Of a DNA stretch of 64,000 nucleotides, positions 44,086 through 50,302 are shown piece after piece. The stretch's first letter is position 1; every line of letters begins with the position of its first letter. The notes below the pieces were generated by a model. It was not told where the DNA came from and did not search any database. It was given only the letters and a program-made list of their open reading frames with translations. The DNA is taken from assembly GCA_015665455.1 (NCBI GenBank), contig JADFAD010000003.1, forward strand, positions 186,001-250,000, read 5' to 3'. The translations under genes were made by a program, and so were the position numbers. This DNA comes from Oceanospirillaceae bacterium (lineage in GTDB: Bacteria > Pseudomonadota > Gammaproteobacteria > Pseudomonadales > Litoribrevibacteraceae).

Positions 44086-45696
44086 TTACTCCGGATAGCC
44101 AGTAATATCTCTAATGGATTTATAAAGAGGTTGAAGCTGTTTGTACATCTTCAAGTAAACCTCATTATATAAGCGCTCATACATATCCTGTGTGGGCTTA
44201 TGCGGGTGAAATACATCTCCCACATGAGTCATGGTCGCAATGGCTTGATCAAAGCTCTTGAAATACCCCATACCTACCGCCGCATCTATGGCAGCACCCA
44301 AACCAGAAGTTTCATAGGTATGTGGACGCTCAACAGGCACGCCAAAGATATCCGCTGTAATTTGCATTGCGGCATTACTTTGGGAGCCACCGCCAGCAAC
44401 ACGAACCTGCGAGATCTTTACCTTACTTCTCTTTTCAATACGCTCACGCCCTTCTTTGAGACCGTAAACAATGCCCTCAAGAATAGCTCGATAGATATGA
44501 GCGCGATTATGAACATCTCCGAACCCAATGATCGCCCCCTTAGCATCAGGGCCAGGGTTTTTTAACCCAGGTGTCCAGTACGGCTGGAGCATCAACCCCA
44601 TGGAACCCGGAGGAACTGAATTCACCAGTTCATCAAAAAGCTGTTCAGGCTCTATACCCCGTTCTTTAGCTACATTAATCTCACGTAGACCAAACTGTTT
44701 TTTAAACCAAGAAACCATCCAGAACCCTCGGTATATCATCACCTCGGTACTGTATGCATTAGGTATGGCTGCCGCGTACGGAGGAATCATAGGTATTGAC
44801 TCAACGTACTTATTATTAATGGTGTTTATGGTGGCTGTAGTTCCAAAACTTAAACAGCCAATATGAGGAGAAAGCCCCCCAGACCCAATGATTTCACAAG
44901 CCTTATCCGATGCGGCAGCGATAACGGGCAGCCCCTTCGGTATACCCGTATATTCGGCTGCGTCGGCGGTTACCGTCCCAATGTGATCACCTGGATTAAC
45001 CAACTCTGGTAACTGCTCTTTCTTAATGCCACATGCGTTCCACTTCCAATCCCAAGACGCAGCCCATTTAAGCCTTTTATAATCAAAAGGGATGTAACCA
45101 ACCTGTGACCCAACGGAATCTCGAAACGTCCCCGTTAACTTGTAATTCAAGTAACCGGATAGAAGCAAATACTTATCCGTTTTAGCCCAAATTTCAGGTT
45201 GCTGCTGTTGAATCCAGCGCGACTGAGTCTTCGCTCGAAATATATTTATAGTTTCTTTTAAGCCCAATAGCTTAAACGCAGCGCCCCAAATACCTTTTAC
45301 GGGCTCCGAAATATCTGCCTTGCGTTGATCCAGCCAAATAATAGCTGGCCTCAGTGGTTGCCCACTTTTGTCTAAATTAACCACTGTACCTCTTTGGGTA
45401 GTAACCGCCATGGCTTTAATTTTTTCACGTTCAACCGCTGGGTTTGCCCAAAGTTCATTACAGGCTTGAGATAAACTTTTCCAATAATACTCAGGGTATT
45501 GCTCTGCCCAACCGGGATGCTTAGAAAAATACGGTTCTAACGGCACCTTTGCTTTTGCAATCAACTGGCCTTTTAAATCAAAAACAAGAGCACGAATACT
45601 TTGAGTACCATTATCGATTGTTAAGATATGATGAGGCTGAGAGTCATCCGAAGAACGCTTATTAACTACTGCAGGCTCTGTACGGGTCACGCTCAT
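44086..45696 (-). CDS. FGGY-family carbohydrate/polyol kinase, not a typical glycerol kinase
   Basis: 536 residues. ATPase-fold phosphate-1 motif TIDNGTQSIRALVFD and the catalytic Asp in AAASDKACEIIG; adenosine region GGGSQSNAAMQITADIF. The glycerol-contact pair Arg83-Glu84 of E. coli GlpK (QRET) reads QRGT here, so the Glu that hydrogen-bonds glycerol is lost. An extended and hydrophobic substrate lid segment (YAAAIPNAYSTEVMIYRGFWMV) is present. The ATG overlaps the stop of the GlpD-like gene by 4 bp (ATGA). The context with an alkyl-DHAP-synthase-like gene suggests a substituted glycerol substrate; this is inference. Confidence 0.88.
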   Translation of the reverse strand: MSVTRTEPAVVNKRSSDDSQPHHILTIDNGTQSIRALVFDLKGQLIAKAKVPLEPYFSKHPGWAEQYPEYYWKSLSQACNELWANPAVEREKIKAMAVTTQRGTVVNLDKSGQPLRPAIIWLDQRKADISEPVKGIWGAAFKLLGLKETINIFRAKTQSRWIQQQQPEIWAKTDKYLLLSGYLNYKLTGTFRDSVGSQVGYIPFDYKRLKWAASWDWKWNACGIKKEQLPELVNPGDHIGTVTADAAEYTGIPKGLPVIAAASDKACEIIGSGGLSPHIGCLSFGTTATINTINNKYVESIPMIPPYAAAIPNAYSTEVMIYRGFWMVSWFKKQFGLREINVAKERGIEPEQLFDELVNSVPPGSMGLMLQPYWTPGLKNPGPDAKGAIIGFGDVHNRAHIYRAILEGIVYGLKEGRERIEKRSKVKISQVRVAGGGSQSNAAMQITADIFGVPVERPHTYETSGLGAAIDAAVGMGYFKSFDQAIATMTHVGDVFHPHKPTQDMYERLYNEVYLKMYKQLQPLYKSIRDITGYPE

Positions 45697-47363
45697 GAAC
45701 TTACCTCCTGCTCTGTGATTTTGAACTGAAGGTGCTGAACCTCTACATCTAAATCAGTAGAAGGGACACTGTAATGGCGTGACCATATTGATTGGTAACG
45801 CTTAAACTCTTGATCCCATGTGTCCTGATTCCAATTTTTGTGAGTTTCAAACAGGCGCCTAATCCTTTCCCAATACGTTGTGTTCAAATGTGGCATAACA
45901 TTACCAAGCCGTGTTCGTCTCAACATTAGGTCATCAAGATGATGAACCGACTCATTCGCGACAGCCCATTCCAGCTCAAGCCAAGAGACGTCTGAAAAAC
46001 CGATCGTCTCCTCGTAGCCTTCAGAGCAATGCTCATTAAACGTAAGTAAATTATTAGTTGAGCGTCCATATTTACCGGACAATCGCCGCTTAAGTCTTCC
46101 CGAGAGCGAACCTATAGAATTGGCAGCATGTTTTGTGGCGGTAAAAAATGGCTGTCCCGAATCCTGAACCTTTGCAATCGTGTTGCTTTTGGCCAATTTA
46201 GATAACACATCAAAAGCAATAAGACGAAAGGTCGTTAACTTACCGCCCGCTACGGTAATCAAACCCGGTTGCTCCCAAATACTGTGCTCTCTATTTTCTT
46301 TGGACGGATCGAGCCCCTTACCGCTGGAGATTACAGGTCTGACTCCAGCCCAAGTAGATACAATATCATCCTGTCGAATTTCACTGCCTTTGAGATAATA
46401 ATTAGCCCCTTCAAGCAGGTAATCAACTTCCTCTTGGGTAATAGAGGCTTCTTCATCCAGAGACTGAATATGATCAAGATCCGTGGTGCCTATAACCGCA
46501 GTTCCCTGCCAAGGAAACACAAACACAGGACGACCATCTTTCGGGTGCAACATCGATATACTGCAAGAGACAGGCAATTTCCAAAAAGGAAGAACGAGAT
46601 GACTTCCTCTTAAAGGTCGAACTTCCGGTGCATGCTCTTCTGAAAGCTGACCTGCCCAAGCACCCGTAGCATTGATCACAGCATCGGAATAGACCCTATA
46701 GCTCTGCCCAAGAACAGTGTCATTGACTTCTACACCAACGACACGACCACTTTTATCTTTAACGAGTTTTTGTACAGCAGCATAGTTTAATGCCGTACCA
46801 CCATCATCGGCAGCTTCCATTAAAGCTCTTAAAACCAATCGACTGTCGTCAGTCACTGCGTCAGCAAAAACAGAGCCGCCAGTTGCATCCCCAGGGCTGA
46901 TAGGTCCAAGCCAATTAGGTAAGTTCGTAGCAGACACCGATTGTCGGTATCGTTTTCCGGCAAAAAAATCGTACACCGCAAGTAATATCTGAAATAACCA
47001 GCGCGGCGGAAATTTTTTGGATTTATGCACCATTAAATAGCGCATCACATCAACCAAACCCGGTGTTTCAGATAAATAACGCTGACGTTCTCTCACCGAT
47101 TCCCGAGTGAGCCCAATCTTACCCTCACCAAGATAACGGAGACCACCATGAACCATCTTCGAAGATCTACTGGAAGTACCCCACGCAAAGTCATTTTGCT
47201 CCAAAAGTAAGACCTTTAGGCCTCGCCTCGAAGCTTCCCTTAGAATACCTGCACCTGTAATGCCGCCACCAACAACAACCAGATCGAATCTAACATCTTC
47301 GTTCTGTGATTTAATGGACGAACGAAACTCCTCAGCAGTCTGAGTCAAAGACGTATTTATCAT
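45693..47363 (-). CDS. GlpD-like FAD-dependent glycerol-3-phosphate dehydrogenase
   Basis: 556 residues. Oxidises the C2 hydroxyl of sn-glycerol-3-phosphate-type substrates with electrons to quinone. FAD Rossmann motif VVVGGGITGAGILREASRRG, then SSRSSKMVHGGLRYL and the C-terminal region AGGKLTTFR and the DLMLRRTRLG segment of the GlpD cap. Peripheral membrane protein by family. The GAGG site is strong. It sits between the AGPS-like and kinase genes with 22-bp and 4-bp junctions. Could be the ordinary aerobic GlpD, but glpF/glpK-type partners are not adjacent and the kinase is atypical. Confidence 0.9.
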   Translation of the reverse strand: MINTSLTQTAEEFRSSIKSQNEDVRFDLVVVGGGITGAGILREASRRGLKVLLLEQNDFAWGTSSRSSKMVHGGLRYLGEGKIGLTRESVRERQRYLSETPGLVDVMRYLMVHKSKKFPPRWLFQILLAVYDFFAGKRYRQSVSATNLPNWLGPISPGDATGGSVFADAVTDDSRLVLRALMEAADDGGTALNYAAVQKLVKDKSGRVVGVEVNDTVLGQSYRVYSDAVINATGAWAGQLSEEHAPEVRPLRGSHLVLPFWKLPVSCSISMLHPKDGRPVFVFPWQGTAVIGTTDLDHIQSLDEEASITQEEVDYLLEGANYYLKGSEIRQDDIVSTWAGVRPVISSGKGLDPSKENREHSIWEQPGLITVAGGKLTTFRLIAFDVLSKLAKSNTIAKVQDSGQPFFTATKHAANSIGSLSGRLKRRLSGKYGRSTNNLLTFNEHCSEGYEETIGFSDVSWLELEWAVANESVHHLDDLMLRRTRLGNVMPHLNTTYWERIRRLFETHKNWNQDTWDQEFKRYQSIWSRHYSVPSTDLDVEVQHLQFKITEQEVSS

Positions 47364-47385
47364 GGAATACCTCTATCAACCCTGA

Positions 47386-49032
47386 TTAAACAGCTTGTTT
47401 TTTTGCTGTTACTGCTTTGTCAGATTTAATCTCTGACCGACCAACCAGTAGTTTACCTGGGTTCATCTGACCGCTAGGGTCGAAAAAGTCCGTGGTATGA
47501 TGAAGTAAATCCGTTGCCACAGGTCCTTTTTCAATTTCCATATACGGCGCATGATCGACACCAACCCCATGTTGATGGCTGATGGTTCCTCTGTTGTTTA
47601 CAATTAAATCAGACGTTGAATACTTAAGTTTTTTCCAGCGATTCAGAGTTTGCTCATAATCATCACCCGTCCGATAAACATAGGTAGTATAAATACTGCA
47701 GCCTTGGCCATAGAAGTGTGATAGATGGGTGAAAACATGCACTTTTTCATTTTCATCAGACAGGGCCGTTCTTAGGTTTTTCTCTATTTCTGATAGTAGG
47801 AAATCAACATTATCCCAATCGGTCGCAGTTTCTAACGTATCTGAGGCATACCCTTTCTCCCAAAGTGTTTCTCTGAAATAAGGGAACATGAAACGTTTTT
47901 CTTTCCAGCGTTTACCTAATAGCGTGCCTGTATAAACACCATCAAACCTAGAAATAATCTTTTTAACTTGCGTCAAGGACAGTGCATTTTGAGCTTTGTT
48001 GCCCGTCAGACCAAACGTCAACATACACTTTTCGTCACCCGCACCTCGAAATTTCAGGAAACGTTCAAGCATATTGATCTGACTTTCGTGACCTGCCAAG
48101 GCTAACTGAGTTTCAGTCTCAACTGCGTTGCTCAATCGCATCATAGACATAGGTATACCGGCCTGAACCATTGCGCGCACACAATTCAATGCCATTAACC
48201 AACTCGGTAAGAACGCAACGCAAAACTTCTCTTGATCTGCTATCGGAGTAACTCGAACCTTTGCCTCAGTAATGATCCCAAAGCGTCCTTCAGAGCCCAT
48301 AAACCATTCACGCATATCCGGTCCAGCAGACGATGCAGGACACGTAGGAATGTCAAACGATCCATCCAAGGTTTCAATACGGCCACCGGCAAACAATTGC
48401 TCTATACGTCCATACTTTAATGATTGCTGACCACTTGATCGACTTGCAATCCATCCCCCTAACGTTGATAGCTCAAAGGATTGAGGAAAATGACCAAGGG
48501 TGTAACCCTTGGCTAAAAGTTGCGACTCAAGAAGCGGTCCAGGGACGCCCGCCCCAAAAGTCGCAATTCGGCTCTGCTCGTCTAAATCTAGTAAACGACA
48601 CATACGGCTCATATCAACCGTGATAATAGGTCTTTCGTCTTTTAACGGGTTTATATGGCCAACAACGCTGGTACCACCACCATAGGGGATAAGAACCCAG
48701 TTATTCTTCTTAGCGTCATCCATCAGAGCTCTAACATCATCACTGGACTCTGGAAAGCTTACTGCGTCAGGAAAAACACCAATATCCCCGCTCTTCATTG
48801 CCAGCCAATCCGGTAAACTCTGCCCTCTTGCATGAAGAATTCGATCTTTAGTTTCAATACTGTATAAAGAGGACGCTTCAAGTCGTGACTTAGGGACCGA
48901 GGATTCGACTTGGCTATACTCAGCATTTTCTAGAGGGGAAGCCTTCCCTACTTTTTCTTCTAAAAATGACTGCCCATTTTCAGGTAGCTCAAGATAGGTT
49001 TTTTCATCACCCCAACCATTCCAACGACGCAT
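47386..49032 (-). CDS. Alkyl-dihydroxyacetonephosphate-synthase-like FAD oxidase
   Basis: 548 residues from the ATG at 49032 (GAAGGAA site; MRRWNGWGD is the usual family start). FAD_binding_4 domain: IPYGGGTSVVGHINP, FPQSFELSTLGGW, MGSEGRFGIITEA. The C-terminal cap aligns with eukaryotic AGPS: an Arg in PYFRETLWEKGYA at the position of AGPS Arg419, CSIYTTYVY for the CIYFYF segment, and HQHGVG for the HHHGVG active-site motif. AGPS exchanges the acyl group of acyl-DHAP for a fatty alcohol to make the ether bond, without net redox. Most bacterial members of the wider family are 2-hydroxyacid (D-lactate-type) oxidases, but the HQHGVG/MRRWNGWGD signature points to the AGPS side. Confidence 0.85.
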   Translation of the reverse strand: MRRWNGWGDEKTYLELPENGQSFLEEKVGKASPLENAEYSQVESSVPKSRLEASSLYSIETKDRILHARGQSLPDWLAMKSGDIGVFPDAVSFPESSDDVRALMDDAKKNNWVLIPYGGGTSVVGHINPLKDERPIITVDMSRMCRLLDLDEQSRIATFGAGVPGPLLESQLLAKGYTLGHFPQSFELSTLGGWIASRSSGQQSLKYGRIEQLFAGGRIETLDGSFDIPTCPASSAGPDMREWFMGSEGRFGIITEAKVRVTPIADQEKFCVAFLPSWLMALNCVRAMVQAGIPMSMMRLSNAVETETQLALAGHESQINMLERFLKFRGAGDEKCMLTFGLTGNKAQNALSLTQVKKIISRFDGVYTGTLLGKRWKEKRFMFPYFRETLWEKGYASDTLETATDWDNVDFLLSEIEKNLRTALSDENEKVHVFTHLSHFYGQGCSIYTTYVYRTGDDYEQTLNRWKKLKYSTSDLIVNNRGTISHQHGVGVDHAPYMEIEKGPVATDLLHHTTDFFDPSGQMNPGKLLVGRSEIKSDKAVTAKKQAV

Positions 49033-49104
49033 AAAGACAGTTCCTTCAAATTGATTTAACAATAGATTTCGATTTAATTTTTTGTTTATGATTAATAATT
49101 AATG

Positions 49105-49121
49105 ACACAGTCTAACCGTGT
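49105..49121. promoter_or_regulatory. Interrupted palindrome in the divergent AGPS-like/araC region
   Basis: ACACAGTCTAACCGTGT, pattern ACACnGTnnnACnGTGT, symmetrical at 12 of 17 positions, between the two divergent starts. Candidate operator for the AraC-family regulator or another factor. Confidence 0.35.
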
Positions 49122-49153
49122 TAAACTATTTTTCACTGACCTATCGGGACAGG

Positions 49154-49190
49154 CAGGTATCAAATTGGGTCAAAGTACCCTTAATACCTG
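49154..49190 (+). promoter_or_regulatory. Nested inverted repeats upstream of the AraC-family gene
   Basis: Outer arms CAGGTAT and ATACCTG (49154-49160, 49184-49190) enclose inner arms GGGT and ACCC (49167-49170, 49177-49180). This could be an operator or a two-part hairpin in the leader, ending 32 bases before the preferred ATG at 49223. Confidence 0.4.
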
Positions 49191-49222
49191 AGACATCAAG
49201 TATACGCGTTGAATTGAGTATT

Positions 49223-50302
49223 ATGCCGACAGAAAAAACAACGAACATATTAGGTACCGCATCAATTCCACCGGTATTACAGTACCTTGACTGCTCCAAA
49301 TCCATGGGCATAGATATAGAGGTCGCATTAAAAAACTGTAACTTCCCTTCAGCGTTGCTTGAAGATGACTCGGCCCGTATACAAGGTTGCGATTTTCAGG
49401 CACTTTTACACGAGCTAATAATCTTAAGTAATAACCCATTATTTGGCCTTCTCTCAGCTCAATACGTTCAACCAGGCTCCTATGTCGTTCTTGGTTATAT
49501 AACAATGAACAGCCGCACTATTAAAGAAGCCTTAGAAAAAGCCATGCCCTTTGAAAAACTCGTTGGTGACATGGGAACGACAGATTTATCAACGGTAAAA
49601 AACGGCTTAATCATGACGTGGAAATGCAACTACACCAAGCCGGAAGTCATTCCTCACATGGTTGATAACGTCTTGGCGTCTTGGGTCACTTATACTCGCT
49701 GGCTTGCAGACAGACCAGAACAGGCACCTAAAGAAGTCTGGCTCACAAGAAGTGAACCAAATGCAGAACAGTTAACAGAGTACTTAGATGTATTTAGGTG
49801 TCCAATTAAGTTCAACCAGCCAACAAACAGTATCGTCCTCTCAGAAGAACACTTGGCTTTACCCCTGAGACGCCCTGATCCAATGCTCTTAAAAACGCTT
49901 GAGCAACATGCTCAAACGCAACTCTCCGAGTTAACTTCGGATAACGACATTGTTTTTGAAGTTACCAAGGCGATAAGAGACATAATGAGAACAGAGCCAC
50001 CAAGAAAAGAGCGTTTAGCCGAGGTCCTAGGAGTGTCTGCAAGGACGCTACAGAGAAAGTTACAAACCGCAAATAGTAGCTATCAAGAACTGCTCGATAA
50101 AGTCAGACAGGAAAGCGCTGAATATTATTTGGCCTACACCCAGCTTCCTATGAGCGAGATTGCCAATCACCTAGGTTTCTCAGATACTCGTTCATTTCAT
50201 CGTAGCTTTAAGCTGTGGTCAGACACTACCCCTGGCGACTTTCGCACACAACAACAAAATACAGATACGTCCACCTCAACGGATTACGATCAATCCAACT
50301 AG
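49223..50302 (+). CDS. AraC-family regulator, arabinose-binding-domain (OruR/MmsR) type
   Basis: 359 residues from the ATG at 49223; the frame extends to 49118, but those codons run through the inverted repeats and lack coding character. The N-terminal ligand domain (PVLQYLDCSKSMGIDIEVAL...) is of the Arabinose_bd type, and the C-terminal double helix-turn-helix has LAEVLGVSARTLQRKL and MSEIANHLGFSDTRSFHRSF. Divergent from the AGPS-like/GlpD-like/FGGY genes, so probably their activator, with a pathway substrate as ligand (inference). Confidence 0.9.
   Translation: MPTEKTTNILGTASIPPVLQYLDCSKSMGIDIEVALKNCNFPSALLEDDSARIQGCDFQALLHELIILSNNPLFGLLSAQYVQPGSYVVLGYITMNSRTIKEALEKAMPFEKLVGDMGTTDLSTVKNGLIMTWKCNYTKPEVIPHMVDNVLASWVTYTRWLADRPEQAPKEVWLTRSEPNAEQLTEYLDVFRCPIKFNQPTNSIVLSEEHLALPLRRPDPMLLKTLEQHAQTQLSELTSDNDIVFEVTKAIRDIMRTEPPRKERLAEVLGVSARTLQRKLQTANSSYQELLDKVRQESAEYYLAYTQLPMSEIANHLGFSDTRSFHRSFKLWSDTTPGDFRTQQQNTDTSTSTDYDQSN

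Follow-up and report, generated by a model that had tools for sequence, protein, structure and literature searches.

We have traced in the window (the whole stretch of 64,000 nucleotides analysed here) an operon of three genes for an AGPS-like flavoprotein, a GlpD-like dehydrogenase and an atypical FGGY kinase, divergent from an AraC-type regulator. We give an even chance to the reading that this operon serves a GliR-controlled salvage of ether glycerolipids, in which an alkylglycerol would be converted to alkyl-glycerol-3-phosphate and alkyl-DHAP, and the fatty alcohol would then be released. This reading is built on the observed gene order, protein families, conserved residues and shared operator sequence. 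The cluster is the ortholog of PA3027/PA3026-PA3024 of P. aeruginosa, and the gene set is known, not new; a 2021 paper described the same families there, with PA3027 transcribed divergently from PA3026-PA3024 within the GliR regulon, and left the role open (PMC8151288). The earlier note on this DNA did not mention this published status.

Gene cluster, relatives and spread

The features of the locus are as follows.

44086..45696, minus strand: atypical FGGY kinase, 536 aa, with FGGY_N and FGGY_C domains
45693..47363, minus strand: GlpD-like FAD dehydrogenase, 556 aa, with DAO and DAO_C domains; distant GlpD homolog
47386..49032, minus strand: AGPS-like flavoprotein (alkyl-DHAP synthase family), 548 aa from ATG 49032, with FAD_binding_4 and FAD-oxidase_C domains; possible extension to TTG 49062
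49133..49152, minus strand: predicted GliR operator CTGTCCCGATAGGTCAGTGA; a weak -35-like hexamer (49124) follows closely downstream, and the AGPS ATG roughly 100 nt downstream
49223..50302, plus strand: AraC-type regulator, probable GliR (PA3027) ortholog, 359 aa from ATG 49223, with Arabinose_bd and HTH_18 domains; possible extension to GTG 49118

The earlier description of three tightly packed leftward genes and a divergent AraC gene was confirmed in terms of open reading frames, strands, families and junctions (a 22-bp gap between the AGPS-like and GlpD-like genes, and a 4-bp overlap between the GlpD-like and kinase genes). The gene ends and order stood, but two start codons had to be moved. 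The AGPS-like gene was started at ATG 49032 rather than TTG 49062, because 66 of 69 homologs share the start motif MRRWNGWGD; for the AraC gene, ATG 49223 is the most likely start, since the GliR model aligns from residue 44 of the long ORF. With both starts revised, the intergenic region is about 190 bp rather than 55 bp, and the predicted operator lies inside it. Neither a lipase nor a transporter was seen among the genes of the host cluster.

At least 493 relatives were found in GTDB species genomes, and the best 80 of these belonged to Pseudomonas, Marinobacter, Hahella, Halomonas/Vreelandella, Saccharospirillum, Oleiphilus, Cognaticolwellia and Thalassomonas. Conservation of the three-gene order across genomes, which the earlier note had proposed to check, was found in every locus that could be judged: the order AGPS-GlpD-kinase on one strand was kept in each of the 77 loci whose downstream sequence was long enough, from at least eight genera, the apparent departures being merely overlaps of a few bases. 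A divergent AraC gene was present at 58 of the 80 loci, most of the others being from Marinobacter or halomonads or cut off near the gene, and the window regulator showed a median identity of 43% to the AraC genes at related loci. When 369 genomes of the class were drawn evenly, 12 carried an AGPS relative; six genera showed the identical gene order, with one additional gene ahead of the kinase in G037, and two short contigs carried partial clusters. In each of the Hahella genomes G375 and G376, the cluster-type kinase occurs more than once and there are several GlpD-like genes, suggesting duplicated clusters. Viral contigs yielded one distant AGPS relative only (36%), on a contig filed as viral (L116:5001-8062), where a GlpD-like gene adjoins it in opposite orientation.

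In the tree, the cluster AGPS proteins formed a separate clade (97/95) and the AGPS group was split from GlcD (100/100), with long branches that leave the deep order unsure. Acyltransferase, SDR or fatty-acyl reductase genes were neither beside nor fused to the AGPS genes of the cluster clade. In contrast, four of five other AGPS-like loci in the class (L029, L030, L031 and L033), which share the AGPS family and the bacterial class with the cluster, have such domains adjacent or fused, fall outside the cluster clade and keep the HHH motif. Fusions of acyltransferase with AGPS and of fatty-acyl reductase with acyltransferase (L033:283-2751 and L030:2106-4538) mark apparent bacterial loci of ether-lipid biosynthesis, and HMG-CoA reductase genes lie near the biosynthetic-type AGPS genes in two genomes (L029:5821-6975 and L033:3981-5270).

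The three enzymes

The assignment of the flavoprotein to the AGPS family held. Its best PDB match was Dictyostelium AGPS (2uuu, E 3e-72), followed by guinea-pig AGPS (5e-59); a putative oxidoreductase and lactate, glycolate and hydroxyglutarate dehydrogenases matched only at 1e-18 or weaker. The match to the animal and Dictyostelium enzymes extends over about 470 residues and includes the RWNGWG start motif and the catalytic Arg, Arg, Tyr and His residues. Counted from TTG 49062, the residues R309, R397, Y458, H496 and H498 correspond to R419, R515, Y578, H615 and H617 of guinea-pig AGPS, and these equivalents were invariant in the alignment of all 69 cluster homologs. The HQHGVG motif and the Arg419 equivalent claimed earlier are thus both present, as ISHQHGVG and R309. 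Mutagenesis of Dictyostelium AGPS found R352, R447 and Y508 to be essential (PMC3509576), and these residues correspond to R309, R397 and Y458 of the window protein. On the other hand, the middle His of HHH (AGPS His616), kept in five of five other AGPS-like proteins and in the animal and Dictyostelium enzymes, is Gln in 68 of the 69 cluster members. Judging from the alignment, HQH in place of HHH is a clade-specific difference of the active site.

We consider a reading of the flavoprotein as a 2-hydroxyacid dehydrogenase of the GlcD type very improbable. It scored 107.8 bits with the GlcD model against a cut-off of 568, the equivalents of R419, Y578 and H615 were missing from two GlcD controls, and Gln497 stands where both controls have the Glu of the EHG motif.

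The GlpD-like protein, previously assigned as such, proved to be a distant homolog, scoring 288 bits with the GlpD model NF008899 against a curated cut-off of 360. Equivalents of H50, R54, Y55, H233, R317, R332 and K354, which we take to form the active site of GlpD, were present in 79 of 79 GlpD-like homologs. Accordingly, oxidation at C2 of a substrate resembling glycerol-3-phosphate is expected, and a quinone-type GlpD enzyme fits oxidation rather than reduction. No second GlpD-like gene was found in four carriers (G210, G148, G377 and G381), and therefore the cluster dehydrogenase may have a double duty there, serving plain glycerol-3-phosphate as well.

The description of the kinase as an atypical FGGY member also proved apt: it has both FGGY domains, yet its glycerol contacts are replaced. 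Its scores lie under every NCBIfam cut-off (183 bits versus 590 for the GlpK model). Assuming that glycerol is contacted in GlpK by R83, E84, Y135, D245 and Q246, the window kinase has Gly for E84, Lys for Q246 and Phe for Y135, and it retains R83, W103 and the catalytic D245. These replacements recur among the kinase homologs, with Gly or Ala at the E84 position in 74 of 74, Lys at the Q246 position in 73 of 74 and Phe at the Y135 position in 65 of 74. The host genome has canonical glpK and glpD genes at a separate locus (773.5 and 779.5 bits), this GlpK retaining all glycerol contacts, and an additional GlpK was present in 23 of 24 carriers. The cluster shares with GlpK/GlpD glycerol catabolism the logic of a kinase followed by an FAD dehydrogenase and the GlpD active site, but it differs in the replaced kinase contacts and in that both proteins fall under the family cut-offs.

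GliR regulon and predicted operator

On the one hand, the locus resembles PA3027/PA3026-PA3025-PA3024 of P. aeruginosa in the four protein families, their order and the divergent AraC gene, and the nearest named family of the window regulator is GliR (best NCBIfam match NF050186, 399.6 bits, E 1e-119). On the other hand, this score is under the cut-off of the GliR model (570), no DAG kinase gene adjoins the window operon, and a PA3464-type phospholipase C, which belongs to the regulon in P. aeruginosa, was sought in the host genome and not found. In P. aeruginosa, excess GliR raised PA3024-26 by 135- to 173-fold, PA3464 by 130-fold and the lipid kinase PA3023 by 47-fold (PMC8151288). Deletion strains had no phenotype when grown on rich medium, on glycerol, on citrate or in Biolog plates, alkylglycerol not being among the reported substrates (PMC8151288).

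A conserved predicted operator, CTGTCC-N6-GACAGTGA, scored above 10 bits in 79 of the upstream regions of 85 homologous loci, a set that did not include the promoter of P. aeruginosa; shuffled sequences reached this in 0.2% of cases. The window operator scored 22.3 bits, as the one site in the window versus 0.06 expected, and it is the only exact site in the host genome; the further matches in that genome were just weak and mostly intragenic, and we claim no extra regulon member from them. The -35-like hexamer beside the operator is weak, and promoter-like matches were not above chance. The published GliR motifs A and B of P. aeruginosa were also compared with the window promoter and rejected as a poor fit, with 5 and 3 mismatches.

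In the P. fluorescens group, the kinase is directly followed by a gene without a Pfam or NCBIfam match, which we identified as the PA3464 phospholipase C because the two published PA3464 primers both fit it, with 0 to 4 mismatches. Six Pseudomonas genomes proved to have a PA3464-type gene, whether linked to the operon or not, and in all six this gene is preceded at 60-100 bp by an operator-like site of the same orientation. Through the shared predicted operator, the operon is linked across Pseudomonas with the cleavage of phospholipids. In one Pseudomonas genome, a strong operator-like site (25 bits) also lies within the phospholipase C coding region (L120:1892-1911); GliR ChIP peaks within genes are on record, too.

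Other neighbours were seen after the kinase. In Colwelliaceae it is followed by a gene for a PhoD-like phosphatase (L061:15159-17528), a possible partner for headgroup cleavage, and in Hahella by a gene for an iron-containing alcohol dehydrogenase (L038:8560-9798), a possible partner for fatty-alcohol oxidation. Each of these two neighbours may represent one event only, and the phospholipase and phosphatase linkages are confined to one lineage each.

Proposed salvage route and alternative readings

During salvage, the headgroup and the ester chains would be removed by other enzymes, in Pseudomonas by the co-regulated PA3464-type phospholipase C, and the kinase would phosphorylate C3 of the leftover 1-O-alkylglycerol. 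The GlpD-like flavoenzyme would then oxidise C2 of the alkyl-glycerol-3-phosphate to give alkyl-DHAP, passing the electrons on. The AGPS-like enzyme would form the known flavin-N5 adduct of DHAP, expelling the fatty alcohol, and DHAP would be transferred either to a fatty acid, with acyl-DHAP as the product, or to water, with DHAP as the product. Since the ketone at C2 activates the C-O bond, the bond could be cleaved without an oxygenase. Read in this way, the three enzymes make up a full chain, with the AGPS-like enzyme running in reverse and having a kinase and a dehydrogenase as partners, where the AGPS of animals and Dictyostelium has an acyltransferase and a reductase. All substrates, the direction of the route and the final acceptor are inferred, the least secure point being what the kinase phosphorylates; in addition, no uptake system was identified.

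Another C1-substituted glycerol or polyol is, in our view, an unlikely substrate of the kinase and the GlpD-like enzyme; in this case, the AGPS-like enzyme would cleave or exchange a polar group. A kinase and a dehydrogenase that act on erythritol, EryA/EryB, are known. The position of the kinase under the cut-offs of all named FGGY families and its different pocket would suit such a role, and the Gln at the AGPS His616 position may mean that the substrate differs, too. However, the flavoprotein resembles lipid-type AGPS, and the co-regulated phospholipase C acts on PC, PE and PS (PMC8151288), both of which point to lipids.

Slightly less probable is ether-lipid biosynthesis, in which glycerol would be converted through glycerol-3-phosphate to DHAP, an unlinked acyltransferase would provide acyl-DHAP, and the AGPS-like enzyme would make alkyl-DHAP. 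This is the direction of the AGPS family in animals and Dictyostelium and the only one in the literature searched (including PMC3509576), and a route from glycerol to alkyl-DHAP was the published guess for PA3026-24 (PMC8151288). However, the operon would then hold two redundant enzymes, considering that GlpK and usually GlpD are encoded elsewhere, and its kinase pocket is not glycerol-like. It also lacks the DHAP acyltransferase and the alkyl-DHAP reductase that do accompany other AGPS genes of the class, and the literature searched, with partial coverage, held no report of ether lipids in the carriers.

A route from monoacylglycerol, which we rate lower again, would employ all three enzymes in order, with the kinase giving lyso-phosphatidate, the GlpD-like enzyme acyl-DHAP, and the AGPS-like enzyme swapping the acyl for an alkyl group or removing it. 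The phospholipase C and the lipid kinase PA3023 in the P. aeruginosa regulon agree with this, but lipases break down monoacylglycerol without ATP, and if the route led to ether synthesis, the oxidation at C2 would have to be reversed by a reductase, which the cluster lacks. Finally, back-up glycerol catabolism with a 2-hydroxyacid dehydrogenase is very improbable and plain glycerol catabolism was rejected, considering the separate GlpK of nearly all carriers, the unaffected growth of deletion strains on glycerol (PMC8151288) and the AGPS residues, absent from GlcD, and Gln497 of the flavoprotein, even though the GlpD active site is fully conserved and some carriers have no other GlpD.

Accordingly, the salvage direction is better supported than the biosynthetic one, because of the separate GlpK and GlpD, the altered kinase pocket, the GlpD-like chemistry, the contrast with the biosynthetic-type loci and the phospholipase C in the regulon, and it is consistent with all tests run. 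The release of fatty alcohol proposed in the earlier note is therefore favoured over biosynthesis, at an even chance, and the substrates named there are candidates.

Ether lipids are abundant in animal membranes and in marine lipids, and the known breaker of the alkyl ether bond is alkylglycerol monooxygenase, an animal oxygenase. To our knowledge, AGPS chemistry has no catabolic use so far, and the literature searched, with partial coverage, mentioned neither a catabolic AGPS nor an operon with an alkylglycerol kinase. The operon is known, and the pathway would be new. With somewhat less confidence than for the pathway itself, just short of even, we propose that glyceryl ethers are cleaved without oxygenase by reverse AGPS, widely in Pseudomonas and marine Gammaproteobacteria, and that in Pseudomonas this is switched by GliR together with phospholipase C. 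If true, AGPS chemistry would here have its first known catabolic use, and an operon shared by hundreds of Gammaproteobacteria would gain a function; in P. aeruginosa, one of its carriers, the operon is strongly inducible yet unexplained.
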